A DNA stretch of 40,389 nucleotides from a virus. Within the stretch, counting starts at the first letter, position 1, and the number at the start of each line of letters is the position of its first letter. Positions 6,856 to 32,909 of the stretch are shown here, piece after piece. The notes under the pieces were generated by a model. That model searched no databases. It saw nothing but the letters and a program-made list of their open reading frames with translations, and was not told the origin of the DNA. The translations under genes were made by a program, and so were the position numbers. The stretch is taken from positions 1 through 40,389 of IMG/VR virus record IMGVR_UViG_3300037882_005271. One strand, written 5' to 3'.

Positions 6856-7269
6856 TCAGGATGCCTTTTCTGTTTTAGGAAGCTTGCTATCGGCCCAGGC
6901 ATTGATGGGGTTATTAGGATCCAGCCAGCTGGCTACCTTACCACCACCGGCTGCTGCTGCCTCATTTTCTGCACTGGTAGCCACATTGCTGCCGCCCTGT
7001 GTGCTTGCTTTACCCCTGAGTGTTTCCAGCTCGGCAGTAAGTGTGTTAATGGTATTGGCCGATGCTGTGGCTGTTTCATTTAATTGCTGCCATTTTGTGT
7101 TAAACTCCTTAATGGTTTCAGTGGCGGTATCCAATGCTGCTGCGGCCTGCTCACCGGCAATTATTGCGGCTTCTACATTGTTAAGCTGAGCTTCAGTAAG
7201 GGCAAATCCCTCATCAACCACAGCAAACTGCGTTGCTTTGGCTGCGCCCATTGTTTTTTCAAATGCCAT
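6856..7269 (-). CDS. Possible separate scaffold product from internal start
   Basis: An in-frame ATG at residue 320 of the protease (MAFEKTMGAA...) falls exactly at the junction of the protease and scaffold domains. Initiation there would give a free 137-aa scaffold sharing the C-terminus of the protease, as with the nested C/Nu3 arrangement of lambda. The junction is serine/asparagine/glutamine-rich. The position is seen directly; use of the start is inference. Confidence 0.4.
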   Translation of the reverse strand: MAFEKTMGAAKATQFAVVDEGFALTEAQLNNVEAAIIAGEQAAAALDTATETIKEFNTKWQQLNETATASANTINTLTAELETLRGKASTQGGSNVATSAENEAAAAGGGKVASWLDPNNPINAWADSKLPKTEKAS

Positions 7270-8226
7270 AGTATTACTATTTTGTTGATTGCTTTTGGTT
7301 TTGATGGAAGCTACCTTTGCCAGCTCAGTAAGTACATCGTTGTAGCTTTTTATGCCATCAATAAGGCCCATGGCTTTTGCCTCTTTGGCAAAATACATTT
7401 TACCGGTTTGCCAGTCATTGCTGGTAAGCCGGGTGCCACGGTCGGATTTTATGCTGTTGATAAACTCAGCAGCCAATACACCCAGCCGCTCTTCTATTAA
7501 AGAAGTATCGCCCTCGTTGGCTTTGCGGTAATCAAGGTTTTTTTCGGTGCTTTGCGGTGCATATACATCCACCACCGGCAGGCCCTGGCTTTTGTAGTAC
7601 TCATTCCAATTGGCAATGGTGGTGTATACACCCACGCAGCCAACCTCATCGGTTTTTTCGGTTACAAATGCTTTTTCTACAGCTGCCAATACCCACATGT
7701 GGGCACTGGCAGCCATACCGCCATTAACCACGCCGTATACAGGCTTTGATGCCCTTGCAGTTTTTATAGCACTTACCAGCTCCACCGGTATGTTGCCCCC
7801 GGGGCCGTTCATATCGAATAAAATGCCGGTAATATTGTTAGCAGCGGCCAGCCTGGTTACCAATGCGCTGTAATCTTTAATGCCATAGCTGCACATACCA
7901 CCGCTTGCCAGCAGCGGCCCATGCAATTTTACAATGGCAATGGCATTAGCGCCAAGCGCACTTATATCCTTGTTATTAAAATAAGGGGAAACAAAAAAAG
8001 CTGTTTGCTGCATACCGGCCTGCATAGCATTGGCACGGGCTTCCTGTGTGCGCAGTTCGCTATCATTGCCTGGTCCATCATCATCCTTATATGCCTGCAT
8101 ACCAAAAAGGCGGGCATCGCCATTGCCCTTCATCACTTCCATTATTAATGGCGTATTGGCCTGCACCCATGTGGAGCTGATGAGCCAATCACTTTTTATA
8201 ATAGAAGCCAGAAATGCACTGTACAT
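6856..8226 (-). CDS. Prohead protease (S49/SppA family) fused to scaffold domain
   Basis: A 456-aa protein. Residues about 95-290 form an S49 (SppA-like) serine protease: KLHGPLLASGG, then FDMNGPGG (about 127-134), the nucleophile Ser174 in GGMAASAHM, and GCVGVYTTIANW (about 197-208). Lys229 is a plausible general base by spacing. After about residue 315 the protein becomes a helical, alanine/glutamate-rich scaffold-like domain. It ends in a glycine linker and a C-terminal WLDPNNPINAWADSKLP tail. It would process and shape the procapsid assembled from the next gene's product. It has an upstream terminator and a start-proximal hairpin, so it probably has its own regulation. Confidence 0.87.
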   Translation of the reverse strand: MYSAFLASIIKSDWLISSTWVQANTPLIMEVMKGNGDARLFGMQAYKDDDGPGNDSELRTQEARANAMQAGMQQTAFFVSPYFNNKDISALGANAIAIVKLHGPLLASGGMCSYGIKDYSALVTRLAAANNITGILFDMNGPGGNIPVELVSAIKTARASKPVYGVVNGGMAASAHMWVLAAVEKAFVTEKTDEVGCVGVYTTIANWNEYYKSQGLPVVDVYAPQSTEKNLDYRKANEGDTSLIEERLGVLAAEFINSIKSDRGTRLTSNDWQTGKMYFAKEAKAMGLIDGIKSYNDVLTELAKVASIKTKSNQQNSNTMAFEKTMGAAKATQFAVVDEGFALTEAQLNNVEAAIIAGEQAAAALDTATETIKEFNTKWQQLNETATASANTINTLTAELETLRGKASTQGGSNVATSAENEAAAAGGGKVASWLDPNNPINAWADSKLPKTEKAS

Positions 8227-10340: not shown

Positions 10341-11768
10341 CTATGGCTGCTTAGCAGCGGTTGTAGTGTTGTTCTCGTTTTTTGGAATGTTTAAGCAGTT
10401 GAGTACCTCGTCGAACTGATCATTGGCCTTATGTAAAGGAAGATGGCTGCCTGCCTGCCTGGTATAAAGCTCTTGGGCAAACCACAGGCGGCTTTGCTGG
10501 GTGGTAATTAACTGCCTGTGCAATATATACTGCCTGAAGGCGGGCAGCTCCCGTGCAAAATCATCCATAATGGCTGTATTGGGGCTGCTTATTGCACCGG
10601 GTGCCAGTACCCAAAATTGCGCTGCATCTACATTGGCTCCCATTGCATTGGTATTAATTATAAAGCAGGTAGGGCTGCTGCTTTCGGTTACCGATGCCAG
10701 TACCTCACCTGTGCTGCCATTAAAGCCATCAATGGCAAGCAGGCGCTTGCCTTCAAAATTAACGGCAGTATCGCCCTGATTATATATATGTACAAATTCA
10801 CTGCCCATCAGCAGCCTTAATAAATGCAGCAGCGTGGTTTTTCCATTGCACTGGCCTGTAAGATGTAAAACCGGCAGCTTTTGCATTTTGCTGCACAGCA
10901 GCAGGGTAATATAATCCAGCCCAATTTGATAGGCATAGTACAGGCTTACAGCATTGCTGCCCGGCTGTGTGTAAGTAACTATATGGGTACCAAATATGTG
11001 CTTAATAAAAGCCATAATGCTGCCAAATGCCTGAAAAGCCTGCTCAGGCTCTGCATCGGGCAAATTTGTAAGCGCTCCTGCTGCACCTGCACCGGTGGCC
11101 TGCTCAATGTATTTTTTTGCACTAAGCATGCTTTGCATGGCGCCCTGCACCAGGCGGGCCGCCTGCTCGTAAGCTACCCGCTGGGCAGGCTCAAGGTTCA
11201 TATACCCGGCCTTGTGCAGGCTGGTGGTTACCTCATCGGTAAGGGGCTGCATTACACCCATTTGGTAATTAAGCAGCTCCAGCATGCCCTGCTCGGCCAC
11301 CGGCTGCAGGTGCACCATGGCGGTGGCATACAGGTTGCGCAATTGCTCAAAATGGTAGGCGTACACCATACGCTCCTGGTTGGTAAATACCTGGTCATCA
11401 AACCAATCATCACTGCTGGTTACAATGGCCTCAATCAACTCAGCCAGCAGCAGAGCCGTGCGGGGGGCAAAGCGCAGGGGGGTGCTAAACAGCCAGTGCA
11501 GCATATCGGCCTGCCAGTGGGTGCTGCCGGGCTCATCATCGTACACCTGGCAATAATCGGCAAAGCTGGCCATGGCCTGCAGTACCTGTACCAACTGTGG
11601 CCGCAGGTGCTGCGGCAGCTCGGCAAAGCCGGGTGCTACCTGTAGCCGCTGCAATGTTTTGTTAATTACTTCTTTGGCATAAGCAGTGCTTAGCTCACTA
11701 AAATAGGCCTGGATAGCCAGCGCCTGCCAGGGCGTTGCACCCTGTACGTTTTGATTTTCGTTTCGCAT
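10341..11768 (-). CDS. GAxPWQ-family protein fused to a degenerate SF3 helicase domain
   Basis: 475 aa. Residues about 10-160 form a helical domain shared with the 25161-25853 product (GATPWQ, WQADMLHWL at 85-93, a RNLYATAM helix). Residues about 250-450 align with the helicase part of the primase-helicase at 19600-22128: FIKHIFGTHIVTYTQPG, then KLP, a P-loop-like GQCNGKTT (305-312), LLAID (Asp347), a sensor-like INTN and a final ELPAF...SRLWF segment. The P-loop is one residue short, and the Walker B acidic pair DE is DG, so it is probably not an active ATPase. It could regulate or cap the true helicase. It is expressed from its own structured leader and terminates alone. Confidence 0.85.
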   Translation of the reverse strand: MRNENQNVQGATPWQALAIQAYFSELSTAYAKEVINKTLQRLQVAPGFAELPQHLRPQLVQVLQAMASFADYCQVYDDEPGSTHWQADMLHWLFSTPLRFAPRTALLLAELIEAIVTSSDDWFDDQVFTNQERMVYAYHFEQLRNLYATAMVHLQPVAEQGMLELLNYQMGVMQPLTDEVTTSLHKAGYMNLEPAQRVAYEQAARLVQGAMQSMLSAKKYIEQATGAGAAGALTNLPDAEPEQAFQAFGSIMAFIKHIFGTHIVTYTQPGSNAVSLYYAYQIGLDYITLLLCSKMQKLPVLHLTGQCNGKTTLLHLLRLLMGSEFVHIYNQGDTAVNFEGKRLLAIDGFNGSTGEVLASVTESSSPTCFIINTNAMGANVDAAQFWVLAPGAISSPNTAIMDDFARELPAFRQYILHRQLITTQQSRLWFAQELYTRQAGSHLPLHKANDQFDEVLNCLNIPKNENNTTTAAKQP

Positions 11769-15379: not shown

Positions 15380-15682
15380 TTATGAGAACCGATAGCTTTC
15401 GTCAACTTTAATAATCGTTGTTTCAAATGGAAACCCATCTGCTGCCACCTGCTGTATCATATTCATCAGGTAAACACTGCCGGTAAATACTACATACTTG
15501 AGGCTGTTTAATTCTATTTGCAGATGCAGGCACTTACCGTTGCCTTTTTCTTCAAATTTTGAGCATTCAATCTTATAATCAATCACGTTTATAAGGCGGT
15601 TTAATATGCGGTCAACACTTATTTTATCTCCACTGAAACTTTTTGTATTCACCTTTATTCCGAAGTCGCTAAATTTTTTCAT
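15380..15682 (-). CDS. Small phage protein next to the reverse transcriptase
   Basis: 100 aa, alpha/beta, ending in a segment with GFPFETTIIKVDESYRFS, a PF-TTI pattern I associate with uncharacterised phage proteins. It overlaps the 3' end of the reverse transcriptase by 14 nt. By position it could be a retroelement accessory factor. It does not look like the four-helix Avd protein, being mixed alpha/beta, so I do not call it Avd. Confidence 0.68.
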   Translation of the reverse strand: MKKFSDFGIKVNTKSFSGDKISVDRILNRLINVIDYKIECSKFEEKGNGKCLHLQIELNSLKYVVFTGSVYLMNMIQQVAADGFPFETTIIKVDESYRFS

Positions 15683-16628
15683 GTAATAGTTTTTTCATTA
15701 AGTTTTTACAGTTAGCGTGTTTCATCCATCCGTTGTATGATGCAATGGTGGCCGGGCTGGCTCCTTTGGCCAGCTTACGGGCAAAGTTTTTCTTAATTCG
15801 CTTCCTTAGCCTTGTGTGGGTGTGATAAAACACATACCCTACAAAATCAATACCCCTGCTTGCCACCGGGAAAACCTGGTAGTTACCTTTTACCTGTAGC
15901 AGCAGCCTATCGGCCAGGTACTGCCTAATATCGGCCAGCAACTGGTGCAGCTCTGCTTTGGTTGCGGCCAGTATCACCAGGTCATCGGCATAGCGATAGT
16001 AATATTTAACCCGCTTATCCTCTTTAATCCAATGGTCAAAATAACTCAGGTAAAAGTTTGCCAGGTACTGGCTGAGATAGTTCCCTATTGGCAGGCCGGG
16101 CGCACTGTCAATAATGCCGTACAGCAGCTCCAGCAGGCGGCTGTCTTTAAACTTACGTTGCAGCAGTTGCTTTAGCACCCGATGGTTTACTGAGGGGTAA
16201 AACTTTACAATATCCAGTTTTAAGCAGTATCTGCTGCCTGGCTCATCCCTCAATGCCCGTTTTACGGCATTGGCAGCCGCATGTATGCCCTTCCCTTTTA
16301 TGCAACTATATGTATCGGCTGTAAAATTAGCCACGAAAATTGGCTCCAATACGTTCATTACAGCGTGGTGCAGTATGCGGTCAGGGTAGTAAGGCAGGCG
16401 GTACACTTCCCGTTCTTTTGGCTCATACACTTTAAAGGTGGTGTAAGGGCTGGTTTTAAAATCACCATCCAGCAGTTGCTGGTGCAGCTTCAGCAGGTGG
16501 GCTTCCTTATTCCTGTCATGCACCTTTATGCCCCACTGGCCAGCCTTACCACGGCGGGCAATGGTATCGGCAGCTTGCAAGTTATCGAGGCTGCAAATTT
16601 GTTCAAATAAATTGTTTTCTCTTTTCAC
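15669..16628 (-). CDS. Reverse transcriptase of a diversity-generating retroelement
   Basis: 319 aa, full length for the family. The RT palm has Asp139 in KLDIVKFYPSV, the catalytic YADD at 213-216 and a thumb region starting RGIDFVGYVF. The motif LPIGNYLSQ (179-187) has GxxxSQ, the signature of retroelements that diversify genes, instead of the QGxxxSP of group II introns. It copies the template repeat transcript with errors at adenines and moves the product into the variable repeats. Template and three target genes lie directly upstream in the same orientation, completing the cassette. No group II intron domains (maturase, HNH) are present. Confidence 0.95.
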   Translation of the reverse strand: MKRENNLFEQICSLDNLQAADTIARRGKAGQWGIKVHDRNKEAHLLKLHQQLLDGDFKTSPYTTFKVYEPKEREVYRLPYYPDRILHHAVMNVLEPIFVANFTADTYSCIKGKGIHAAANAVKRALRDEPGSRYCLKLDIVKFYPSVNHRVLKQLLQRKFKDSRLLELLYGIIDSAPGLPIGNYLSQYLANFYLSYFDHWIKEDKRVKYYYRYADDLVILAATKAELHQLLADIRQYLADRLLLQVKGNYQVFPVASRGIDFVGYVFYHTHTRLRKRIKKNFARKLAKGASPATIASYNGWMKHANCKNLMKKLLHEKI

Positions 16629-16741: not shown

Positions 16742-16813
16742 GCAATGCTGGGAGCTGACATTCGTATTCGTATTCCAGTTATCGTAGTCGTTGAACGACA
16801 GGCTGGAACCTGC
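16742..16813 (-). repeat. Template repeat (TR) of the retroelement
   Basis: A 72-nt sequence in the 226-bp non-coding gap between the last target gene and the reverse transcriptase. Read on the minus strand as 24 codons it has 20 adenines and several AAC/AAT codons (FNDYDNWNTNTNV). Compared with the three variable repeats, every difference lies at a template adenine, apart from one boundary base in VR2. The rest of the gap (16629-16741 and 16814-16854) probably encodes the structured retroelement RNA. Confidence 0.95.
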
Positions 16814-16854
16814 ACACAAACAACCTAAGCCCAGGCAGCACACAACCCATTTAA

Positions 16855-17235
16855 TTATTGCAAATACAACCATGCTTTTGCATACAAGTCTGCAAACTTT
16901 TTACCGGCATACTCCGCAGCCTCACTACTGACGAAGCAAAGCCGGGAGCCGACACCCGTATCCGTAAGCCAGCGACCGTAGCCGTGGAACGACAGGCCGG
17001 AACCCGCAGGGCATTCAGCACTTGCTTTTACTTTCATCCACGGATGATATTTATATTGATTGGAGTTGCTCCAATCAGGCTTCCATCCGTTGTTTATTGC
17101 CTGAGTAATAATTACTAACTGGTAGTGGCTGATAATTGCTTCCTGATGTTCTTTTGGCAATCCTTTTACCACTGGCAGGGTTGGATTAATTTTGAGCAGC
17201 TCACAGGCATGCTCAAATGATTTTACTTTTTTCAT
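16855..17235 (-). CDS. Diversified C-type-lectin-like target protein 1
   Basis: 126 aa. The N-terminal part has SFEHACELLKINP, QLVIITQAINNGWKPDWSN and YKYHPW, the scaffold usual for Bacteroidota retroelement targets. The variable region (GLSFHGYGRWLTDTGVGSRLC, split over residues about 77-100) is followed by a constant C-terminus with AAEYAGKKFADLY. The fold is inferred to be C-type-lectin-like, displaying the variable residues for ligand binding. It is closest to the template repeat and is coupled by ATGA to target 2. There is no signal peptide. It differs from the template at 15 adenines. Confidence 0.92.
   Translation of the reverse strand: MKKVKSFEHACELLKINPTLPVVKGLPKEHQEAIISHYQLVIITQAINNGWKPDWSNSNQYKYHPWMKVKASAECPAGSGLSFHGYGRWLTDTGVGSRLCFVSSEAAEYAGKKFADLYAKAWLYLQ
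16936..17007 (-). repeat. Variable repeat VR1
   Basis: 72 nt aligned without gaps to the template at 16742-16813. It differs at 15 positions, all template adenines (for example AAC to CGC, AAT to CTT, GAC to GGC). All other bases are identical. Confidence 0.94.
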
Positions 17236-17606
17236 TTTACAAAGTTTTGATGGTTCATAAAATCAGCCCACAGCTCCGGAAACTGTGCTGCTGAATATTT
17301 AGCCAGCTCTGCCGACTTAAAGCAAAGCCGGGAGCCGACATTCGCATCCGTAAGCCAGCCATCGCAGTCGCCGAACGACAGGCCGGAACCCGGTTCCTTT
17401 TCCTCAAACCAAAGTACATACTTGTACTCATCACTATCACTCCAGTTTGGTACCCATCCTTCATTGAGGGCTTCGGTTATCACCGTGAGCTGGTAATCTG
17501 CCAGCAGGCCACGCCTGTACTTTTCAGGCAAGCCATTCAGGTTGGGCAGTTCGGGGCTTATGCCCAATGCTTTTGCAGCATCTTCAAAATTTTTAATTGC
17601 TTCCAT
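17232..17606 (-). CDS. Diversified C-type-lectin-like target protein 2
   Basis: 124 aa, a paralogue of targets 1 and 3: NFEDAAKALGISP, QLTVITEALNEGWVPNWSD, YKYVLWF, then the variable region (GLSFGDCDGWLTDANVGSRLC, about residues 76-99) and a constant end SAELAKYSAAQFPELW. It carries a cysteine from a template TAC codon (to TGC), a substitution absent from the other two. Its start shares one base with the stop of target 3 (TAATG), and its end couples to target 1 by ATGA, so the three are one translational unit. Confidence 0.92.
   Translation of the reverse strand: MEAIKNFEDAAKALGISPELPNLNGLPEKYRRGLLADYQLTVITEALNEGWVPNWSDSDEYKYVLWFEEKEPGSGLSFGDCDGWLTDANVGSRLCFKSAELAKYSAAQFPELWADFMNHQNFVK
17322..17393 (-). 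repeat. Variable repeat VR2
   Basis: 72 nt aligned to the template. All internal differences (13) fall at template adenines. The first codon (CCG against template GCA) also differs at a guanine, suggesting that the homing boundary lies just inside it. Confidence 0.93.
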
Positions 17607-18091
17607 TATGATTGTTTTATTGTTAAAAAGTCATTATACAAGTCAATGAATTGCTCACCTGCATATCTGGCCAGCTCTGCCGACTTAAAGCAAAGCCGGG
17701 AGCCGACATTCGTATCCGTAAGCCAGCCATCGTAGCCGTGGAACGACAGGCCGGAACCCGCAGGGTTGGCTTTAAAATATGGATAGTACTTATACTGGCT
17801 GCTATTGCTCCAGTCGGGTGTCCATCCTTCGTTTAAGGCTCTGGAAATGATGGTGAGCTTTTGCAAGGCTACACAGGCGGCATTATCTCCGAAAGGATCA
17901 TCTGTACTGATTAAAAAACTGTGCTGCTGTATGCCTAAGACAGCACAGGCATCTTCGTAGCTTTTTACACGCTCCATTATCCCATCTAATAAATTGTATG
18001 CTCCCAACAAATTAGTGAGTAACTTTTTGCCTGCATCATCGGCACTCTGGTACGCTTTTACAGCGTTTACTTTTTCAATTTTGATTTCCAT
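17606..18091 (-). CDS. Diversified C-type-lectin-like target protein 3
   Basis: 161 aa using the ATG at 18091; a GTG at 18127 would add 12 residues but overlaps the methyltransferase stop. An extra N-terminal helical segment (KVNAVKAYQSADDAGKKLL) precedes the common scaffold: SYEDACAVLGI, KLTIISRALNEGWTPDWSN, YKYYPYF. The variable region (GLSFHGYDGWLTDTNVGSRLC) and constant end SAELARYAGEQFIDLY follow. It is first in transcription of the three targets and differs from the template at 12 adenines. The longer N-terminus may serve to anchor or oligomerise it. Confidence 0.92.
   Translation of the reverse strand: MEIKIEKVNAVKAYQSADDAGKKLLTNLLGAYNLLDGIMERVKSYEDACAVLGIQQHSFLISTDDPFGDNAACVALQKLTIISRALNEGWTPDWSNSSQYKYYPYFKANPAGSGLSFHGYDGWLTDTNVGSRLCFKSAELARYAGEQFIDLYNDFLTIKQS
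17690..17761 (-). repeat. Variable repeat VR3
   Basis: 72 nt aligned to the template with 12 differences, all at template adenines. It is nearly a subset of VR1, sharing the CAC-GGC-TAC stretch. Confidence 0.94.
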
Positions 18092-18107: not shown

Positions 18108-19598
18108 TTAATTAAAAGATTCAACACATTGCCCTACCAGCCATTCCATTACTGGCGGCGTTACCGCATTACCACATTGCTTTACCTGCTCCCTGGCAGT
18201 ACCCAGCACCACATAATCTTTATCAAAGGCCATTGCCAGTTTTACTTCTGGTGCTTTTATCATGCGGTAATAGCAATCTTCCAGTGCTGGCCGATGGCCC
18301 TGCTGGTAGGTAACAAGTTGGTGGGTGTCCTGCGTGGTGCAGGTACCTAAAGGATCAGTAATATGTGTGGCCTGCGATGTGCCGTACCAGTAACTGATAA
18401 AACTGCTCCAGCTTTCGTTGGTAATAATGCCATGATACCCTACTGATGTGGCTGTGCTTAAAGGTTCGGTTATTGCCCTTGCAAGGCTGGTGCCTTTATT
18501 TTCTACAATAAAAGGCGGGGTAATTAATGCGCTGCTGTCGGTTGTTGTTTGTGTGGCAAATACTCCTGATACAGTATTGGCATTGCCTGCCGCTTTGGTA
18601 TGCTCCAACCTTACAATAAACGGGGGCGTAACCAGCTTATTGAATGATTGTGTGGGGATGGTGCTGAATATGCCCTGCACAGGGTTAACCCTAAACCCTA
18701 CGCCAGTGCTATGCTGGTCGTTAACAACAAATGGGTTGCCAGAATATTTATCCAGCCCGTAATTACACCTGCGCACAGTGTTTGGCACCAATGGCTTTTC
18801 CCTTTCAGATATTTTTGTTCCTATATCCGACCAATCTATGCAATTGGCAGCAGCATAGTAGTAAGGCTCTACCAGTGTACCATCTACAGGGCATCGGTAA
18901 ACATATTGTGTTTTATATTTTCCAAAATGCTTACCCGGATGTTTCCATGTTTGCACTGCCTGCACATCCTTACCGCACTTGCTGCAATGGGCAGCAGGTG
19001 TGTAATCGAGATTAGGTGCTTTGTTGCCTTTTTTCCAAAATATTATATACATCCTATCCCTGCTTTGAGGGGTTGGCAAAAAGTGTCGGCTGTTGAGATA
19101 AACGGCTTTGTGCTGATACCCTAATGTGTACATTGCATTGAGCCAGGCACTGTACATTATCCATTTACGGGCTTCCACCACATTTTCTACGATGATATTA
19201 TTGTACTTGTGATACTCAGCGAACCTTACCACATCCCACATCGTAGCCCGGCTTCTCTCGGCAGCAGCATCTATCTTACCAGATACGAACATTTCCATTT
19301 GCGTCTGGTGATTCTTTTTACCATTGGATGGCCCGTGGTTGGTACATTCAGGGCTGGTAATCAATATGTCGGTTGATGGATACCGGCGTGGCTCTGATGC
19401 GCTTATATCGGCACAGTCGTGGGCTGTATCTGGGAAATTTGTGTTATGAGTTTCGATGGCTAATTTCCAATGGTTCATGGCCAGTGAAACCTCCAACCCG
19501 CCGCCCATTTTACGGCTAAGATTGCGCACTCCCTGGCTGCTGCCGCCTGCACCGCAAAACTGGTCGGTTACTGTTATGTGTGATTTTTTTCTGCTCAT
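18108..19598 (-). CDS. DNA cytosine C5-methyltransferase
   Basis: 496 aa from the ATG at 19598, which follows the upstream stop by 1 nt; the start at 19616 would lie inside the helicase gene. Motif I is DQFCGAGGSSQG (12-23). Motif IV is SPECTNHG with catalytic Cys85, a PEC variant of the usual PPC. Motif VI is VENV, motif VIII is in PTPQSRDRMY, and motif X is CGNAVTPPVMEW. An inserted segment holds CSKC and a later RCPVDG, a partial zinc-ribbon pattern. No restriction partner is visible, so protection of phage DNA is the likely role. Confidence 0.93.
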   Translation of the reverse strand: MSRKKSHITVTDQFCGAGGSSQGVRNLSRKMGGGLEVSLAMNHWKLAIETHNTNFPDTAHDCADISASEPRRYPSTDILITSPECTNHGPSNGKKNHQTQMEMFVSGKIDAAAERSRATMWDVVRFAEYHKYNNIIVENVVEARKWIMYSAWLNAMYTLGYQHKAVYLNSRHFLPTPQSRDRMYIIFWKKGNKAPNLDYTPAAHCSKCGKDVQAVQTWKHPGKHFGKYKTQYVYRCPVDGTLVEPYYYAAANCIDWSDIGTKISEREKPLVPNTVRRCNYGLDKYSGNPFVVNDQHSTGVGFRVNPVQGIFSTIPTQSFNKLVTPPFIVRLEHTKAAGNANTVSGVFATQTTTDSSALITPPFIVENKGTSLARAITEPLSTATSVGYHGIITNESWSSFISYWYGTSQATHITDPLGTCTTQDTHQLVTYQQGHRPALEDCYYRMIKAPEVKLAMAFDKDYVVLGTAREQVKQCGNAVTPPVMEWLVGQCVESFN

Positions 19599-19599
19599 A

Positions 19600-22128
19600 T
19601 TAAAATGGTAAATCATCGGCTGGTGGCGGTGGTACTGTACCCTCTGGAAGCAATTGAGTTAATTGCTCAGCTTCAGCTCCAATATCAACCGTTACACCGT
19701 CTCTTTCGGTTACAAAATCTTTTCGGTAAAAAACTAATGGCCTGCCATTATCGCTCACTTCAATACGCAGCCTTTCCATTTTCCCATCTTTCATTTGCTC
19801 CACATAATCAGGGTAGCTGTACCGTATCTGCTTTTCTTTTACGTGTATAAATCTATCTACCTCAAAACTCCCTGTATCCTGGCCGTTTGCAAACTTTTGT
19901 AAAGCAGCATTTGTGGCTTCATCTCTTGTGCTAAATTCAGTTTTAGGATCTCCCTGCAGGTAGTATACATGGTATGGCCTCACTTTAAGGTTATCCTGTA
20001 AAATTTTTGCTATGTAGTTTTTTTCGTACCGGTTGCCAAATACCTGCTTATGTATAACTGTTGGTGTCATCTTAATTTCATCATACCCGGTATTTAAAAA
20101 CAGGTTTTCCAGGTAATACCTTATTTCTTTTTCTGCCGTAGGCATACTGTACCTGATGATGCGCTGGCGGGCTTCTGTTTTTAACAGATCAGGGTGAAAC
20201 CACATGCGGCCACTTTCTTCGGTACTTAACTTTCTGCGGTTTAAAAAGCTCAAAAAGGCAGGCATTTCCTCCACGAATGTGTCTAATATGCGTGGGTTTT
20301 CGCTTGTAAGCTGCGGTACTTTTATTACCCAATAACGGATATCATCATCAGTAAGGGTGATAAAGTTCTCTTCGTTATTGGTTATGAGTACAAAAACTAA
20401 AAAGCAATCAAGCTCTACCTGGCTTTTGCCCTTGGCATTCATGTAAATTTTACGGGCAGTACTGAGCGATTTTATTTTGTCAATTACGTGTACCTTATCA
20501 ATTTTCGCCTCATCGCATATAACCACTTTTTTGGTTACCCAATGGGCATTAAAATCGCCAGCAAGGTCGGCATTACCTACAATGGCAACATTACTGCTGA
20601 GCATTATGCGTAAAAAGTTTGCGAAAGTACTTTTACCTGTATTATTTTCTTTACTTACCAGGCAAATGATAGGCAGCTTAAGCCACGGCTGCTGAAACAA
20701 TATCTGCAGGTAATCCAGCGCCATTTCATAAGTATTATGCTCCCGCCTTTCTTTTGTGCCGGGATGCCGGTAGGTAACTGTTTTATTGCCAAAAAGGTGT
20801 AAAATAAACCTCAATATAGTGGGGCAATCCTCATCTGTACATGGCTCTTCATCCGGCTGAATTTCCAACTCATTGTACACATTAAAGCAGTTATTGATTA
20901 TCCTGGCATATTCAGGCCCATGCACCGGCACATTGCAAAACTCTTCATACTTTGCTATGTGCTTAAAAATATTTGCACCATGATCCTGCTTTATCGTGGA
21001 TGTTTTCCTGTTTTTAAAATATTTTTCCAGTTGCTTATACTGGTTGGGTATATTTACCCACTTATAATAATCATCACCCACTCTAAAATATAGCTTGGCA
21101 CTGCTGGGTACTTTTACATCGCAATCTCCTGTTTCTGCATTATAAGCGTACCTGGTTCCCCTAAAAACAAACTCCTTATCTTTTATCTCTGGCCGGCGCT
21201 CGGTATGAAACAAATAAAAATCCTTTACATCCTGCAAATGAAAGTGGCGCCATACTTTACCAAGGCCATGCGTAATATTAAATTTTTTAAAAAATGTACC
21301 TGCAGCACTTACGCTGTGCAGCTCAGTAATTATTTGTTTTTGAGTGGCTTGCTCATTAGAAAAGTAGCATAGCAAATCATCTATCCCTTTAAAATCATCC
21401 CGTGTATGATTGCCGGAAACACTATCCCTGATAGCATCTATATCTACATGTATGAACCATTTTTCTAAATCATAATCATCCAGCAGCGTTTTAAAGGTAG
21501 ATATACTGGTAAAAAATTGTGATGGCCGGGTATAAAGGTCTAAATCAGCATCAATACCTGCATTTCGGCTCAAATCAAGGCAGTCACCATCCGTAAGCCA
21601 TACAATGCGCTTTACCTGGCATGTTTTAATCAAATCCAGTATTTCGGTATGCAGGGCACCTTTTTCGGCATCACGCATGTGAGTAATACTGCTTAGCCCT
21701 ATTATATATGCCCCATGCATATCTGCTTTAAAAGCCTTAAAGTATCCTTCTACCAAAAAAAGTGTGTGTATGCTTGTTTTTTGTTCGTAAGCTTCTACCA
21801 GTTTTGGAGGAAAAAACGGGTATGTGCCAGCTCCCTTTGGCAGTAAGTACTTAGCTTCTTTGCCATTTTTAATAACGGGTGTTTCAAGCCTGGTAATACT
21901 GTATGTTTTGCTCCACCGGCTGCTTTCTGTTTTAAAATTTATTAAGCTGCGCTGCAGGGTGTATAGTAATATTTTTATTCCCTCCGGTACTTGCTGAAAA
22001 ATTTGCATAGGCTCCAGCACGTTTCCATCAGTACCATTGCGCCAAATATTAATATTATTCAGTTCAGCGGTAACGCCGAGTGCATCCATGCGCCTCTGGT
22101 AGTATGATATTGTATCTTTTTCAGCCAT
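19600..22128 (-). CDS. TOPRIM / SF3 primase-helicase (DUF5906-like)
   Basis: 842 aa from the ATG at 22128, which shares a base with the upstream stop (TAATG). The N-terminal part has a TOPRIM-like core: LFLVEGYFKA (Glu about 127) and IVWLTDGDCLD (DGD about 180-182). The C-terminal part is an SF3 ATPase with P-loop KENNTGKST (Lys about 499), Walker B VVICDEAK (about 535-542) and sensor ITNNEEN (about 582). A short acidic/proline tail (PPPPADDLPF) resembles the C-terminal tip of ssDNA-binding proteins. It is the main replication protein recognised here. Its helicase part is the homologue of the degenerate domain in 10341-11768. Confidence 0.92.
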   Translation of the reverse strand: MAEKDTISYYQRRMDALGVTAELNNINIWRNGTDGNVLEPMQIFQQVPEGIKILLYTLQRSLINFKTESSRWSKTYSITRLETPVIKNGKEAKYLLPKGAGTYPFFPPKLVEAYEQKTSIHTLFLVEGYFKAFKADMHGAYIIGLSSITHMRDAEKGALHTEILDLIKTCQVKRIVWLTDGDCLDLSRNAGIDADLDLYTRPSQFFTSISTFKTLLDDYDLEKWFIHVDIDAIRDSVSGNHTRDDFKGIDDLLCYFSNEQATQKQIITELHSVSAAGTFFKKFNITHGLGKVWRHFHLQDVKDFYLFHTERRPEIKDKEFVFRGTRYAYNAETGDCDVKVPSSAKLYFRVGDDYYKWVNIPNQYKQLEKYFKNRKTSTIKQDHGANIFKHIAKYEEFCNVPVHGPEYARIINNCFNVYNELEIQPDEEPCTDEDCPTILRFILHLFGNKTVTYRHPGTKERREHNTYEMALDYLQILFQQPWLKLPIICLVSKENNTGKSTFANFLRIMLSSNVAIVGNADLAGDFNAHWVTKKVVICDEAKIDKVHVIDKIKSLSTARKIYMNAKGKSQVELDCFLVFVLITNNEENFITLTDDDIRYWVIKVPQLTSENPRILDTFVEEMPAFLSFLNRRKLSTEESGRMWFHPDLLKTEARQRIIRYSMPTAEKEIRYYLENLFLNTGYDEIKMTPTVIHKQVFGNRYEKNYIAKILQDNLKVRPYHVYYLQGDPKTEFSTRDEATNAALQKFANGQDTGSFEVDRFIHVKEKQIRYSYPDYVEQMKDGKMERLRIEVSDNGRPLVFYRKDFVTERDGVTVDIGAEAEQLTQLLPEGTVPPPPADDLPF

Positions 22129-22544
22129 TACTTCATAAACATTTTTGTATTCTGTAATTCCTGTTCTTTCAATTTTATATCGTTCCACCACTCTGTAATC
22201 AATACATTTTGTACTTCCATATTTCTGCTTACATACTGGAATACGATATGCTGCAATTTGAACCTCGGTGGTAATGGCACATTCTTATTGTAAAATCTGC
22301 TGAGTAAAGCTGCCTGGTATGCTGCCGGAAAGCCGCAGTTAATAAAAGCAAGTACATCCCTTATTTGTATATACTCTGTAGACCTTATGGCAACTACTTT
22401 TACTATACCCAAAACTTTGTTTTTTAAAATGGCCGTTAGTTCATTACCAATAAAGTATTTCTCATCGTCAAGTGCCCGTAAATCGCTGAAAGTTTCGGCG
22501 AAAAGTTTACCATTATGATTAATTGAAAAATTTATTTCGTGCAT
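22128..22544 (-). CDS. Early-operon protein of unknown function
   Basis: 138 aa. The N-terminal half is beta-rich (NFSINHNGKLFAETFSDL, then ILKNKVLGIVKVVAI); the C-terminal half is helical with FKLQHIVFQYVSRNMEV. I do not recognise a family. It sits between the HTH protein and the primase-helicase in a tightly overlapping operon (4-nt gap before, TAATG after), so a replication accessory such as a loader or DNA-binding factor is plausible. Confidence 0.7.
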   Translation of the reverse strand: MHEINFSINHNGKLFAETFSDLRALDDEKYFIGNELTAILKNKVLGIVKVVAIRSTEYIQIRDVLAFINCGFPAAYQAALLSRFYNKNVPLPPRFKLQHIVFQYVSRNMEVQNVLITEWWNDIKLKEQELQNTKMFMK

Positions 22545-25160: not shown

Positions 25161-25853
25161 TTACGCCAATACAAGCTTATCCGGCACTACCAGCACGTTC
25201 ATCATTTCCCGTGCATTTTCTAAGAGGGTGCGGCCTTGTGTGATGATGCCCAGGATATTGCCAAAAATCATTTGCTGCTCAATAGAAAGCTGATTGGTAT
25301 CAATACTATTGAGGCCATCGGCAATATTACGGGCAGTGGGCATTATGTTGCCCAGCTCTACCGTAATGGCGGTACACCACTCATCTTTTACCTGCTGCTG
25401 CATAATGGCCATGGCCTTGCTGTGCAATGTGCGCAGGGCAGTAAAGTTGGTGGTAATTGCTGCCTGCAGCTCTGGGGTAAATGCCTGCCAATCGGGGCTT
25501 ACGCTTAGTACCTGCTCCATAAAATCGTTTAGCATCCAGTAGAGGCGGGGCGGCATTTTATCCAGCCCATCGTACAGCCACTCAAGCGTATCGGCCTGCC
25601 AGCCATCTATTGGTGGCCGGGTGGCCATCCGCTCGTTGCACAGGTTAAAAAAATCTACTACACTGTTGAGCATTTCCGCTGCTTTGGGCTGCAGCTTTGG
25701 CGGCACATTGGCCCAGGCAGGGCTTTTAATAAGGGTATCCCTTATTTTTTTATTAATGGAGCCCGCATAAATGGGCGGCTCACCCGCAAAATACTCGGTT
25801 AATAACTGCGTTTGCCAGGGAATTGCACCCTTTGCTGTGTGATTTGTTGTCAT
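25161..25853 (-). CDS. GAxPWQ-family helical protein (stand-alone domain)
   Basis: 230 aa, homologous to the N-terminal half of the 10341-11768 product: GAIPWQ (9-14), WQADTLEWLY, a DW-F-PEL stretch and LRTLHSKAM in the same order. It is all-helical with no catalytic motif and no helicase domain. It stands alone between the integrase and the cargo gene, convergent with the integrase, with its own promoter, leader and terminator. It may interact with the fused paralogue or compete with it. I do not recognise the family, and no function should be assumed. Confidence 0.82.
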   Translation of the reverse strand: MTTNHTAKGAIPWQTQLLTEYFAGEPPIYAGSINKKIRDTLIKSPAWANVPPKLQPKAAEMLNSVVDFFNLCNERMATRPPIDGWQADTLEWLYDGLDKMPPRLYWMLNDFMEQVLSVSPDWQAFTPELQAAITTNFTALRTLHSKAMAIMQQQVKDEWCTAITVELGNIMPTARNIADGLNSIDTNQLSIEQQMIFGNILGIITQGRTLLENAREMMNVLVVPDKLVLA

Positions 25854-26952: not shown

Positions 26953-28773
26953 TTATAGTGGCATCATTTCTACCGTTATTACCCCGCTATTGGGTATGCT
27001 GCGCTCAGTTTTTACCGGTACCAGCAGCACATTGTTAAGCTCCACACAGGTGGCAGCATCTAACTGGCGCAGGGTAATGGCATTTATATTCAGCTTCAGC
27101 TTTACTTTTTCGTTTTGCTCAATTACATTTTGCCACTGGCTGTGGCAGCAGGCTGCCAGCCCATCAGCCCCCTGCAGTGCCAGGCTGCGGGGCTGTATAA
27201 TGGCATAGCCCTGGGCGCTGGCATCGGCCTGCTTATTGTGGCTGTAGCTTACGGGTATAAAATGCCCGCTTACCAGCAACTGGCTTATGTAAAACAGGCG
27301 CACTCCAAAGGGGGCTTTTACCTTGCTGCCTACATAGCTGGTATAGCTGCCTGCCTGGGCGCAGGCGGCATAGTACTGCCGCTCGTTAAGCGCTGTGGTA
27401 TTGTTAAACAGCACGTATGTACACAGGGTGCTGCAGCCAACCTTTACCTCCCGCCCGCCTGCACCGCTTTTTACAGGCAGCAGGCCCTCGCTAAATACCT
27501 CCCACAATACCGGGCTGCCGGTGGCATTGGCCACACTGTAGTACATATTATCGGCCAGGCTGTAAGCCACATCATCGGTAGTAAAGGGGCGGCCTATGCT
27601 TAGCGTGGCCAGCTTGCTGTAATTGGCCACGGTGGCCACCAGCTTTTTATCGCCCAGCTCTTTTATATGGCTGCCGGGGTACTGGTCGGCACCATCCCAT
27701 GCATAATCAAGGGTGTAGCCCTCCTGCTCCTGGCTATCGGTACGGCTGCTGGTAAAACTGCTGCTGGCCATGGCATTTATATTTAACACTTTGCGCTGGG
27801 TAATTACCTGCTGCCGGTACACCAGGCGCACGGTGCTGCTGCCTTCAAAAAAGGGGTAGATGTTGAAAAACTGAAAGATGGCTTTTAAAAAATCGGCCAC
27901 GGTTTCGTCGGGTACATGGTTGGCAGGGTTGAGGCTGCGGGTAGTATCCTGGTTGTTTACATATACCTCTATACCATAATTGTTAAACACATGCACATCA
28001 TCCCAGGTATTTTCGCCTACTATGGCACCGGTAACGGCATAGCCATGCTCGTTAAATATGGCATTGATGATGTGCTTAAGCCTGATGAATGGCACGGTAA
28101 AGTAATGGCTGTACTCAGCCGTGCCTGCCACTGCCGGGGTGGATGGGCTGGCGCTTTGTGGCCGGCCAAATACCCAATCAGCCGTGCCACCACCGGTAAC
28201 AATGATATTGTTTACCGTATCTTTTGCCAAAAACTCAGTGGTGTAGCCCGGTGCGCTGGTATTGATAAAGTTTTCTATAGCTACCGGCGCAAAGCTTATG
28301 TAGGGGTGGCCATCGGCCTTAATATCCCTGGCATACTGGCGGCTGGTACGGCTGCCAAAGCTGATGGGGCCACCCAGGTGCAGGGCTGGCATTTTTTTAT
28401 CTTTTATGAGGCTGCCAAAAAGGCCACGCTGCCCGCTTACGCTGGCATTAAAGCTGCCAGTGCTGTAATTGAGGCGGCCGCTTTTTTCCAGTATGGTAAG
28501 CTTGCCACCCTGTATGGCGGGCAGGTTACCATCGTACACATCGCACTTAAAATATGGGGGCGTGCGGGTAAAGTTTTTTATACGCTCGGCAAAGTTGAGC
28601 AATTGGCGGTTATTATCCGTCCATGGTATATCTACCGGCAGGCTGTACTCACCAATGCTCAGCTCTTCATCAAAAATGGGGGCATTATCTTCCACATCCA
28701 GCACGGTACCTTCTTTAAGATCGAGAAAGCCGCTGCGGTAGGGGCCATACACATATATGCTCAGTTTACTCAT
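26953..28773 (-). CDS. Baseplate/tail-tip protein
   Basis: 606 aa, beta-rich, directly downstream of the tape measure, where distal-tail and tail-associated proteins lie. The N-terminus (LSIYVYGPYRSGFLDLKEGT) with IGEYSLPVDIPWTDNN resembles tail proteins of Bacteroidota phages. The middle is hub-like, with PDETVADFLKAIFQFFNIYPFF. No peptidase or glycosidase motif is evident. It overlaps the tape-measure stop by one base (TGATG). The baseplate role comes from order and size. Confidence 0.75.
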   Translation of the reverse strand: MSKLSIYVYGPYRSGFLDLKEGTVLDVEDNAPIFDEELSIGEYSLPVDIPWTDNNRQLLNFAERIKNFTRTPPYFKCDVYDGNLPAIQGGKLTILEKSGRLNYSTGSFNASVSGQRGLFGSLIKDKKMPALHLGGPISFGSRTSRQYARDIKADGHPYISFAPVAIENFINTSAPGYTTEFLAKDTVNNIIVTGGGTADWVFGRPQSASPSTPAVAGTAEYSHYFTVPFIRLKHIINAIFNEHGYAVTGAIVGENTWDDVHVFNNYGIEVYVNNQDTTRSLNPANHVPDETVADFLKAIFQFFNIYPFFEGSSTVRLVYRQQVITQRKVLNINAMASSSFTSSRTDSQEQEGYTLDYAWDGADQYPGSHIKELGDKKLVATVANYSKLATLSIGRPFTTDDVAYSLADNMYYSVANATGSPVLWEVFSEGLLPVKSGAGGREVKVGCSTLCTYVLFNNTTALNERQYYAACAQAGSYTSYVGSKVKAPFGVRLFYISQLLVSGHFIPVSYSHNKQADASAQGYAIIQPRSLALQGADGLAACCHSQWQNVIEQNEKVKLKLNINAITLRQLDAATCVELNNVLLVPVKTERSIPNSGVITVEMMPL

Positions 28774-31700
28774 CAGCTTGCTTTTTGGTTTATGGCGGCG
28801 GCGGCGGCGGCGGCATCAAATACTTCTTCCTGCTCCCGGTATTCTTTAATACTTACTACAGCATGCAGCTTTGTTTTCATGGTTTTAATTTCCTGTGTTT
28901 GCAGGGCCTGCTGTGCTATTAACTGGCGCAGCAGCTCGTTAGTAGCCTGCATACTGCCATCTGCCCCATCATCAGTACCTGCATTGGCCGTGCGGCCTGC
29001 TGCCAGCCCGCCCAACTGCATGCTGCGCACCAGGGCGGGGCTTATGCCTGCCTGCTTTTGCTGCAGCCATTTGGCCATATTTACCACCGCACCACCGGCC
29101 CACTGCACACCGCCTGCCTGGCTATTAAGGGCGCTGGTAATTTGGGCGGGGGTACCGGTAACGGTATACCGGTTACTATCCCGCATGGTACGGGCATTTA
29201 TTACCGCCTCATCCCGCTCAATCATAACGGGTATGCCGCCACTGGCATCACTATGCTTATCACCGGTGGTAAAAAAGCCACCCTTGCCAGCCTCTGGCAG
29301 GGGCGTGCTGGCAATGGCAGCTACTTGTATGCCACCCAATACACCAGCCAATATACTTAATGGCACATTGGGCAATGCTTCTACTATGGCACTTGCTGTA
29401 TTAATTACTGCCTGAAAAATATTCAATGCTTTTTCCCGCTTTGCCTGCCTGCGCTTTATTTCACGCTCCTGCTTATCCTGCTGTTCCTGCAGGTTATTCA
29501 CCAATTTATCATGCTGTGCCTGGCTTATCAGCTTATTATCCAACTGATCTTTAAACTGCTTTTTCTTTTGATTGTTGGCAGCACGGTCTTTTTGCAATTG
29601 CCGCTCTTCCCGATTATTTAAAAGCTGGTTGAGGCTGTTAAAAGCACTTGCTGCAGCATTTACAAAATTCATCACCCTTTCAAACTTTTGCTTAAAGTTT
29701 TCAAGCTCCATATCCTTTATAGCATCATTTTTCTCCTGCTCCTTTAGCTTGTACATTTCGCTAAGCTGATCAGCATGCTCAGTTTCCTGCTTAAACTGCT
29801 CTTCAAGCAATGCCTTTTGGGCTTTTAAATTAGCATCGGTACCAGGGCGTGTTGTAAATACTGCACGCTTTAGTTTAGAAATATTTTCTGATTTAGAAAA
29901 CTCAGTAGCTTCTTTATCTGATTCTTTCCTCTTTTTATTTTCATCAATCTTATTATTGGTAACGGCGGTTTCGGCTGCTTTTTTAAACTGCACCAGGTCG
30001 GTTTCAGCTTTTTTTACCGTGGCGCTGTAATCCTGTGCAATGGTTACCCTGTCGGTAATGGCATCCAGTTCAATCTTCTTTATTTTTTCGTTGTACTGCT
30101 TTTCTGAAATAAGACCTTCAGCATATTGTTTTGATATATCAATCTTAAGCTGGTCAATATATTCTTGATGATAGGAGAGAGATTTTTCGTATTCATCCCT
30201 TTCAATTTCTTCAAATCTTTTCTTTTGATATTTATTAAAAATGGCAGACAATTCAGCTTGTTTTGCTTCGGTTATTTGCTTTTCAGCTTGATCAAACTGG
30301 CTTTTTGTAACTGCATGTTTTGTAAAATAGTCTTTTGCCTTATCCAAAAGCTCCTTATACTTCATGTTTACTGCATCAATTTCGGCCTGATCAATTTCCT
30401 CATTTTTAAGCAATGCACGTTCCTTAATTTTTGAAAGGCTGGTGTAAAATTTATCAGCTTCATCTTTTAGGCTTTTAAGGTCATCGCCATTTTTGCTACT
30501 TGATTTTTCTGGTTTTGTTTTTGGAATTGCCACATTTACGGAAACATTACTTGCACCTGTACCAGGTACTGCAGTTGCACCTGTAGCCACATTTTGCTTA
30601 ATAGTGCCATACAAAATATCAAGGCTTTCTCTTGTTTTTTTGGCTTGCTTTTCAAGGTCTTCCAATTGCTGCACATTGCTGCCTTCGCCTATGCCAAATA
30701 AATCGTATGCCAGGTTTTTTATTACTCCTTTGTTATTACGTACCTCACTTCCTCCTGATACCTGCACTGCAGTGGCACGTATATTAGCAATACCAGCTTC
30801 CTGTTTTGCCAGTTCTTTTTCCATTTCGGCAGTAAGATCATTTACAGCTTTTGCCCGGTTGGTTTCCCGCAGTTTTTTAATGTAAAGGTCCATTATTTCA
30901 ATGCCCTTGGCTGTGGTAAGGTTTTCCAGCGTAAGGCCTTTAAGATACTCCGGGTTAATGTTGATAAGTTCCTGCAATGCCTGCTTACGCTTACCAAGCT
31001 GTATATTGTTATCGCTGGCAATGGCGGTAAGCAGTTTCATTTGCGATTGTGTTTCGCCCACACTTTCGGCCACCCGGGCATCCAGCTCAGCCTGTACCCG
31101 TTTTTCGGCACTCAGTTCTTTTTCTTTAAAAAGCAGTTTATCCAGTATTAATATTAATGCACCAATGGCAATTACAATACCGCCAATAATGCGGGTACTG
31201 CCAGCTAATGCAGCATTATAAATGCGCTGTGCTGCAGTGGCCAGTGTAACCTTACCGGTGGCTACACCTACAATAAGCGCCCATGCACTTTGTGCGGTGG
31301 TGGCAATAGCCGTCCATACGGCTACAGCCCTTGCAGCGATGGCATTTAATCCTTTGGCCACAGTATCCCTGGCTGTAACCAATGCACTTACAATGTATGC
31401 CATGTTTAATAACAACACGCCTGCCAGCATGGTAAGCAGTGCAGCTTTATTTTCAGCTATAAACTGCGGAATATTTTTTATGGCTTTTATAAATGCAAAA
31501 GCCCCTTCAACAGCACCTTTTAAAAAATTGGTAATGCCCGGGCTGGTTATCAGCTTATAAAACTCCTTACCCAGCTTATCAAGGCTGGCGCCAAAGGTTT
31601 CGTTTTTAAGGGCAAATGCTTCGGTAATGGCGGTGGTATTTTTAAGGCTCTCGTTGCCAAGCGTCATTTTAGTACGCATAAATTCGCCATTTTGCCCAAT

Positions 31701-32909
31701 GGCCTGCAGCACACCTACCACCCTTGCACCCTCTTCGCCTGCATCTTTAAAGCTGCTGGCTACTTCGGCAAAGCTGGTTTTATTTTTAGTGAGGCCCTCG
31801 GCAAATTTTACCAGCGCTTCCTGTGGCTTGGTGGCAAAATCGTTGGCAAATTGCTGTATTTCGGCCGATGTTTTGGCACCGGCTATTTTGGCTGCTTTGG
31901 GCAAATCGCTTGCAATGGTGCTAAGCAGTTTTTGTATGGCGGTGCTGCTGCTTTCGCTTCGCTGCCCCAGCTCTTCCAGCCCGGCAGCAAGTCCCACTGT
32001 GCTGCCCAGGCTAAGGTTGGCACTTTTGGCAATACCACTTACCCGCTGGGTAAAATCGGCAATAAAGCCACCACTGGCCACACCGGCATTGGCCAGCACC
32101 ACAAAGCTGTTACCCAGGCGGCTGATATTATCAGCATCTACCTTGCCATCAAACACATTGAGTATTTTACCCAGTTGGGTGGTTATCTGGTCGGCATCGC
32201 CCAGCTCATCGCCAAGTGCCACCACCAACTGATCTACGGCTGCAGTAAAGCCATATATATCTGCCTTGGCCACGCCCAGCTTACCGGCAATAATGGCAAT
32301 TTCACGCAGTTTATCGGTGCTGGTACGGGTATCCAGCTCGCCAAAGCGTTTATTAAGCCTGTCTACCTCTTCGGCAGTAAGGCCACTTACCCGGCGCAAA
32401 TCGGCCAGTGAGTCGCTTAGCTTACCGGCACTGCCAATTATATTCCTGAACTGGCTGCTTATGAACTGAAAGCCCAGGTATGCAGCGGCCATCATGCCAA
32501 ACTGCTTTACCTCATCTTTTATTTTGCTGAAAAAAGAGGCAAAGCCCTGTACCCCATTGCGTACTTCGTACAGCCGGTTTTCTACCAGTTTTATCTGCTT
32601 GCTAAGCTCAGTAAATTCTTTTGTAAACGGGGTAATGCTGCCACGCTGTGCTTTAAGGTTTTTAAGCTCCTGCATCAGCTCCTTTTGTGTAAGTGCAGTA
32701 AGGCCAATACTTTTTTTAAGGGCATCCATATCGGCCTTTACCTGCTTAAGCTCCTTAGCTTTGGCAGCATACTCGGCCGTGCCACGGGTAAGGCCCTTCA
32801 TTTCCTCATTAATATCTGCAGCTTTTTTGCGCAGATTGTTCATCTCGTTTTTTGCCGCATCGCCCTTAATATTTACGATGAGGTTGACGGTATCGGTTCT
32901 TACACTCAT
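28773..32909 (-). CDS. Tail tape measure protein
   Basis: 1378 aa, the longest gene. The N-terminal 130 residues are heptad-rich coiled coil. The TP901-type core follows (LRRVSGLTAEEVDRL about 171-185, then KLGVAKADIYGFTAAVDQL). Hydrophobic helices follow in the middle (LLTMLAGVLLLNMAYIVSAL and GIVIAIGALILIL, about 485-585), then a long charged coiled coil (about 790-1140). An alanine-rich C-terminus ends in a run of alanines. By the usual 0.15 nm per residue rule the tail would be about 200 nm. This gene defines the phage as long-tailed. Confidence 0.93.
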   Translation of the reverse strand: MSVRTDTVNLIVNIKGDAAKNEMNNLRKKAADINEEMKGLTRGTAEYAAKAKELKQVKADMDALKKSIGLTALTQKELMQELKNLKAQRGSITPFTKEFTELSKQIKLVENRLYEVRNGVQGFASFFSKIKDEVKQFGMMAAAYLGFQFISSQFRNIIGSAGKLSDSLADLRRVSGLTAEEVDRLNKRFGELDTRTSTDKLREIAIIAGKLGVAKADIYGFTAAVDQLVVALGDELGDADQITTQLGKILNVFDGKVDADNISRLGNSFVVLANAGVASGGFIADFTQRVSGIAKSANLSLGSTVGLAAGLEELGQRSESSSTAIQKLLSTIASDLPKAAKIAGAKTSAEIQQFANDFATKPQEALVKFAEGLTKNKTSFAEVASSFKDAGEEGARVVGVLQAIGQNGEFMRTKMTLGNESLKNTTAITEAFALKNETFGASLDKLGKEFYKLITSPGITNFLKGAVEGAFAFIKAIKNIPQFIAENKAALLTMLAGVLLLNMAYIVSALVTARDTVAKGLNAIAARAVAVWTAIATTAQSAWALIVGVATGKVTLATAAQRIYNAALAGSTRIIGGIVIAIGALILILDKLLFKEKELSAEKRVQAELDARVAESVGETQSQMKLLTAIASDNNIQLGKRKQALQELININPEYLKGLTLENLTTAKGIEIMDLYIKKLRETNRAKAVNDLTAEMEKELAKQEAGIANIRATAVQVSGGSEVRNNKGVIKNLAYDLFGIGEGSNVQQLEDLEKQAKKTRESLDILYGTIKQNVATGATAVPGTGASNVSVNVAIPKTKPEKSSSKNGDDLKSLKDEADKFYTSLSKIKERALLKNEEIDQAEIDAVNMKYKELLDKAKDYFTKHAVTKSQFDQAEKQITEAKQAELSAIFNKYQKKRFEEIERDEYEKSLSYHQEYIDQLKIDISKQYAEGLISEKQYNEKIKKIELDAITDRVTIAQDYSATVKKAETDLVQFKKAAETAVTNNKIDENKKRKESDKEATEFSKSENISKLKRAVFTTRPGTDANLKAQKALLEEQFKQETEHADQLSEMYKLKEQEKNDAIKDMELENFKQKFERVMNFVNAAASAFNSLNQLLNNREERQLQKDRAANNQKKKQFKDQLDNKLISQAQHDKLVNNLQEQQDKQEREIKRRQAKREKALNIFQAVINTASAIVEALPNVPLSILAGVLGGIQVAAIASTPLPEAGKGGFFTTGDKHSDASGGIPVMIERDEAVINARTMRDSNRYTVTGTPAQITSALNSQAGGVQWAGGAVVNMAKWLQQKQAGISPALVRSMQLGGLAAGRTANAGTDDGADGSMQATNELLRQLIAQQALQTQEIKTMKTKLHAVVSIKEYREQEEVFDAAAAAAAINQKAS

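Follow-up and report, generated by a model that had tools for sequence, protein, structure and literature searches.

The window analysed here, a linear virus record of 40,389 nucleotides that may be incomplete, comes from a temperate tailed phage of Bacteroidota and holds a genuine diversity-generating retroelement (DGR), apparently intact, in which a single template repeat (TR) is paired with variable repeats (VRs) in three tandem target genes. It belongs to a large and widespread family of cassettes in Bacteroidota phages, in which two targets are the norm and three a minority expansion. Our best explanation, to which we give roughly an even chance, is that of a DGR lacking Avd that diversifies three binders acting after entry, in counter-defence or superinfection control. 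Discussion of phage DGRs has centred on receptor switching; a widespread family with small soluble targets encoded in the replication/methyltransferase region would imply that phages pre-diversify post-entry functions as well.

Anatomy of the cassette and its repeats

The genes run along the minus strand in the order distal, middle and proximal target, TR, reverse transcriptase (RT) and accessory gene, with the following features (positions in the window):

15380-15682, minus strand: accessory protein, 100 aa, phrog_19665; start 14 nt inside the RT stop; OB-like predicted fold
15669-16628, minus strand: DGR RT, 319 aa; GTG start; GxxxSQ and YADD
16742-16813, minus strand: TR, 72 nt with 20 adenines; mutable core about 16751-16798
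16855-17235, minus strand: proximal target, 126 aa, phrog_11581
16936-17007, minus strand: VR1; 15 of 20 TR adenines changed (core 10/15); core about 16945-16992
17232-17606, minus strand: middle target, 124 aa, of proximal type
17322-17393, minus strand: VR2; 14 of 20 TR adenines changed (core 9/15), plus one boundary G to C; core about 17331-17378
17606-18091, minus strand: distal target, 161 aa, with N-terminal extension; ATG at 18091, the open reading frame opening at 18127 with GTG
17690-17761, minus strand: VR3; 12 of 20 TR adenines changed (core 7/15); core about 17699-17746
18108-19616, minus strand: neighbouring C5 cytosine DNA methyltransferase (context, outside the cassette)
19600-22191, minus strand: neighbouring DUF5906/primase-type helicase with a weak Toprim match (context)

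An earlier note, made from the sequence alone, had confined the element to 16742-18091, a span that covers the TR and the targets but leaves out the RT and the accessory gene; its description of a complete DGR is borne out by the TR, the three VRs, the targets and the RT. Realignment reproduced the single TR and three 72-nt VRs that it had reported, all on the minus strand and free of gaps, as well as the restriction of their differences to TR adenines, with the first base at the 5' end of VR2 as the sole exception. The counts it gave for VR1 and VR3 (15 and 12) were right, but that for VR2 (13) was one short. Confinement to adenine sites has hypergeometric P values of 1.3e-11 for VR1, 1.8e-9 for VR2 and 8.2e-9 for VR3, and in an A-tolerant scan of both strands the three VRs scored 52.8-57.4, 30 shuffled windows reaching at most 15.8; a chance repeat as the origin of the TR/VR match was rejected. 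The same scan found no fourth VR in the contig and none in a tail gene. The VRs lie within protein-coding targets near the RT. No Rfam families were found in the window.

Since VRs across the family are nearly fixed to one base at 5 of the 20 TR adenines, 15 adenines are informative in the window, and of these 10, 9 and 7 are changed in VR1, VR2 and VR3, respectively. VR1 and VR3 agree at 11 of the 15 core A sites (Monte Carlo P 0.0015) and VR2 and VR3 at 10 (P 0.008), values that stand at the top of 120 within-phage pairs, for which the family mean is 36%. The three VRs of the window are therefore not fully independent. The same high agreement would be expected of a decaying DGR, in which an RT is present and old VRs have been copied by duplication or recombination rather than by recent retrohoming. 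We think this quite improbable, in that the RT, TR, VRs and accessory gene are intact, the TR is still matched by all three VRs at non-adenine positions, and VR1 and VR2 agree at only 6 of the 15 sites.

A family with paired targets and a bounded mutable tract

A search with the RT only retained 80 viral loci, those listed being 64-72% identical. Recognisable TR/VR pairs were present in 73 viral loci, the window included, and 2115 of their 2146 TR/VR differences fall at TR adenines; 63 of these loci have two VRs, five have three (the window, L007, L035, L043 and L045) and five have one, some of the single-VR loci sitting at contig ends. Among 79 prokaryote-genome loci, nearly all of them titled Bacteroidota, two VRs were found in 46, three in 11 and one in 17, with 2058 of 2091 differences at TR adenines. 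The family layout comprises a distal target (about 155 aa), a proximal target (about 125 aa), the TR and the RT. Multiple coupled targets, which the earlier note had thought uncommon, are thus the rule as pairs, and three-VR loci recur in both sets. In published surveys, multiple VRs were reported for 271 of 948 DGRs (PMC6642488) and for about a seventh (PMC3521204). The nd4 and nd12 phages (tentaclins, PMC10743442) likewise use one TR for two hypervariable targets per phage, but there the targets are unrelated C-lectin receptor-binding proteins, whereas here they are paralogous small early proteins. The VR usually ends 22-27 residues before the target C-terminus in family loci and is internal, in contrast to the C-terminal VRs that Roux et al. 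found to be typical of DGRs (PMC8144416).

A target tree built without the VR columns splits most distal genes from most others (support 0.81), with 114 of 131 other genes and 9 of 107 distal genes on one side of the split. By type, the middle gene of the window is proximal, and it lies closer to proximal genes from other phages than to the gene beside it; that it is a recent copy of the proximal gene was rejected, because each of the two is closer to other phages' proximal genes. Since other three-target loci expand either target type, there must have been several expansions. Extra targets need not be tandem: in L045 the third one, which has a true VR (at 606), is placed some 4 kb upstream of its TR (at 4776). 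One virus contig (L292, G011:C1:1500-8500; L024) seems to hold two DGRs, with an RT and Avd near long open reading frames and an Avd-less early cassette about 25 kb away.

We mapped the mutable tract on 242 VRs from 66 TR clusters, anchored on the VGSRLC motif, with positions counted relative to its Gly codon. Non-adenine TR positions between about -38 and +6 almost never differ from the VR, and outside this interval mismatches increase; the tract so mapped would span about 50 nt in the middle of the VR. At synonymous sites inside it, the bases opposite TR adenines are mixed (three of each at +2). At the edges, the synonymous site -55 is G in 111 of 113 VRs (30 TR clusters), and +11, a four-fold synonymous site with an adenine in the TR, has T in 157 of 163 VRs (40 TR clusters). 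TR adenines at 0 and +7 nearly always correspond to a G in the VR, coding the conserved Gly and Arg, a constancy that protein selection can explain. At each of the fixed edge differences between TR and VR (-55, -49 and +11) the TR base is an adenine, synonymous sites included.

These edge adenines resemble the IMH marker differences between TR and VR at the 3' end in BPP-1 (PMC3240598) and are unlike hypermutation; IMH/IMH*-like fixed differences are present at the 3' end of VR and TR. A BPP-1-type hairpin or cruciform after the VR was not seen in a simple test limited to 50 nt of single strand (mean z -0.5, with 8% below -2). The boundary map separates the TR adenines that report mutagenesis from fixed markers that inflate A-site counts.

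Comparison of closely related loci bears on activity. Loci L010 and L011, which are 99.3% identical, differ at 9 of 44 VR positions opposite TR adenines and at 0 of 115 elsewhere in the VRs, and outside the VRs at 0 of 81 TR positions and 9 of 2779 others (Fisher 1e-12 and 5e-6 for the contrasts). The pairs L035/L043 (31/58 vs 2/172) and L074/L075 (23/45 vs 2/118) agree. Because near-identical relatives differ in their VRs only at TR adenines, the cassette family is, by this comparison, active, and this copy may be active too. The search for VR variation in related contigs that the earlier note had proposed thus yielded adenine-specific variation among family pairs, although an exact TR scan of viral contigs found no phage near-identical to this one. 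Relatives in cultured Bacteroidota (e.g. Niastella caeni, Pedobacter arcticus and several Flavobacterium) make the cassette testable.

The reverse transcriptase and a candidate accessory protein

The RT carries LPIGNYLSQ and YADD, as expected from the GxxxSQ signature and YADD already reported for it, and in 79 related genome RTs SQ is present in all, YADD in 76 and YCDD in 3. It matches RVT_1 and, at 1.1e-123, phrog_1423. Its best PDB sequence match is 8ub7_A (E 2.3e-47), which we take to be the BPP-1 DGR RT, with group II RTs far behind at about 5e-21; judged by such matches, it stands nearer to DGR RTs than to group II or retron RTs, and identification as a retron or group II intron was rejected. 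NCBIfam matches to the RT were all under the cut-off, and its PADLOC match was generic only. The nearest RTs in the phage collection, 50-55% identical, are those of crAss-like phages (cr52_1, cr115_1), which differ from the window in having the RT within the structural/lysis region; its neighbour in cr52_1 is a tail protein annotated as major-tropism-determinant-like.

The accessory protein of about 100 residues, which the earlier note had missed, is an addition of the present analysis, and it may possibly have been described before. Its gene, which overlaps the RT stop, is present in 41 of 59 viral loci and adjacent in 55 of 79 genome loci. In the phage collection, all 20 records with an accessory match have it beside or inside the RT gene (by annotation or position), and all 80 best loci of a search with the accessory protein, a query itself drawn from DGR cassettes, have an RT just upstream. 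The predicted model (pLDDT 90) has the strand and helix order b-b-b-a-b-b and is OB-like; Foldseek returned the OB domains of RuvBL, HIN and RPA among its weak hits, none at E <= 0.001. The family has a mean pI of 8.6.

Avd is not universal in DGRs. No Avd was found in the window with PF22296 and phrog_3206, which detected the BPP-1 positive control (a record located by a short RT peptide, 67% match) and which were used in place of PF05635, dropped as an Avd probe for being silent on BPP-1. Among 32 records with this cassette, the Avd models matched in one, there beside a second RT. BPP-1 shares with the window the TR/RT logic, adenine specificity, RT homology and 3' TR/VR marker differences (PMC3240598), but its only VR is at the C-terminus of a tail protein and is followed by a hairpin, and it possesses Avd, whereas the VRs of the window are internal. 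BPP-1 bbp4 was rejected as a homologue of the accessory protein, to which it is unrelated, though bbp4 too overlaps brt.

Hankyphage p00 (BK010646) has a DGR RT of the same broad type, 434 aa long, in which the accessory protein is the C-terminal domain, matching phrog_19665 at 3e-18 and scoring 97.9% in hhalign; it differs from the window in its tail-fibre target, its one annotated VR and the fusion. The hankyphage DGR has been shown to be active, and Avd is marked in its published figure (PMC12135933); bAvd models found none in p00.

DGR accessories named in the literature consulted are Avd, HRDC and MSL (PMC10053308). The accessory protein described here probably assists at the RT/cDNA step where Avd is lacking, and it offers a testable route to Avd-independent retrohoming. 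A bolder and still tentative proposal, which we rather doubt as a whole, is that it represents a new DGR accessory class, separate here and fused in hankyphage, that would replace Avd as the partner of RT, template RNA or cDNA, and that the Avd-less branch would be a post-entry system, in which a pair of hypervariable soluble proteins tracks intracellular defences.

Targets, genomic setting and probable function

The cassette is flanked upstream by the primase/helicase and the C5 methyltransferase and downstream by DUF5131 and a Dam-like methyltransferase, with structural genes lying away from it (tape measure 28773-32909, head protease 6856-8226). Similar surroundings recur in relatives, where the commonest annotated families among 132 neighbour genes are methyltransferases, helicases and primases, with a few terminase and portal genes and no tail family among the top 25; the placement in an early operon rather than the tail module, asserted in the earlier note, agrees with this. 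The three targets match phrog_11581 at 3e-22, 6e-25 and 4e-37. A hydrophobic segment of TM or signal type was absent from all 91 family targets, as would suit proteins acting within the cell. For the targets, Pfam yielded no informative match, NCBIfam matches were at chance level, and a PDB sequence search with the target profile returned no match; no nucleic-acid-binding domain was recognised in any of these searches. For the distal target, AF2 gave a model (pLDDT 83) of low confidence at the VR, which matches uncharacterised phage proteins only; no PDB fold match was found for it at E <= 0.001 that would indicate a C-lectin fold, but the VR segment is one that tail targets share through a common TR. 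The hypervariable segment is bordered on one side by a predicted beta hairpin and on the other by the conserved VGSRLCF motif.

Small soluble proteins made together with replication and methyltransferase genes would be poor candidates for receptor binding and good ones for intracellular binding. That the targets act inside the host, as the earlier note suggested, is plausible and is strengthened by their context and solubility; we infer that they are not virion proteins. A non-structural phage DGR target has been reported for Quimbyvirus by Benler et al. 2021 (PMC8008677), so this category is known and the tandem distal and proximal cassette is a variant of it. Quimbyvirus and LoVEphage, the latter Quimby-like to judge by its size, split RT and gene content, share with the window a non-structural target in a methyltransferase-rich early region, phrog_11581 and an A-specific VR. 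They differ in having a single TR for both a tail protein and a distant early gene, and an RT divided among several frames, whereas the present family has two or three tandem early targets together with TR and RT.

The early-region homologues of LoVEphage and Versailles match phrog_11581 at 1.1e-50 and 1e-78, and their VR differences fall at A in 11 of 11 and 14 of 14 cases, those of the tail genes that share the same TR in 11 of 12 and 12 of 13. This sharing of one TR between a tail protein and an early homologue favours a different view, namely that the targets enter the virion as minor components, or are injected, and touch the host surface or periplasm, their location among DNA-metabolism genes saying little about the site of action. 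Among the phage DGR targets that have been characterised, the majority are tail proteins (PMC8144416), the tail and early VR segments of these two phages are 67-71% identical over 38-39 residues, and the early homologue is annotated as a tail protein in one record. That label, however, derives from the VR segment, and over its full length the protein matches phrog_11581; beyond the VR the tail protein is unlike the family profile (hhalign 5.5%). Given also the early-region position in many unrelated relatives and the soluble character of the targets, we consider a virion role unlikely.

The targets might instead act on phage or prophage regulation, in the choice of repressor or replication partner or in prophage-prophage exclusion, rather than on host defences. 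The phage is temperate, with an integrase and an upstream regulator-like gene, and the cassette sits among replication genes; but nothing ties the targets to a repressor, and the searches that recognised no nucleic-acid-binding domain in them also speak against such a role, to which we assign a low probability.

Post-entry counter-defence is the function that we favour, in view of a setting rich in methyltransferases and of the precedent in Quimbyvirus, regulatory or superinfection roles being possible too. In the mechanism that we propose, TR RNA would be copied by the RT with misincorporation at adenines, presumably with the OB-like accessory protein at the RT/cDNA step, and the cDNA would replace the middle 50 nt or so of the VR in each target gene. 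The products would be three small soluble paralogues, one distal in type and extended at its N-terminus, the other two proximal. Their most likely partners after entry are variable proteins of the host or of rival phages, so that progeny would carry a library of binders, as tail-fibre DGRs provide for receptors.

Some minor features of the contig lie outside the cassette. Positions 1-18 of the window read ACGACGCTCTTCCGATCT, presumably the end of an Illumina adapter, and these first bases are probably untrimmed. Clearly similar proteins are encoded near opposite contig ends (4303-4851 and 35538-36149), sharing LAPEKNEL..KTIGDTMFQK and LPGSY..LHE motifs, and are probably paralogous structural proteins. 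Two genes with similar starts (GA-PWQ...), at 10341-11768 and 25161-25853, flank the early region and are possibly related.
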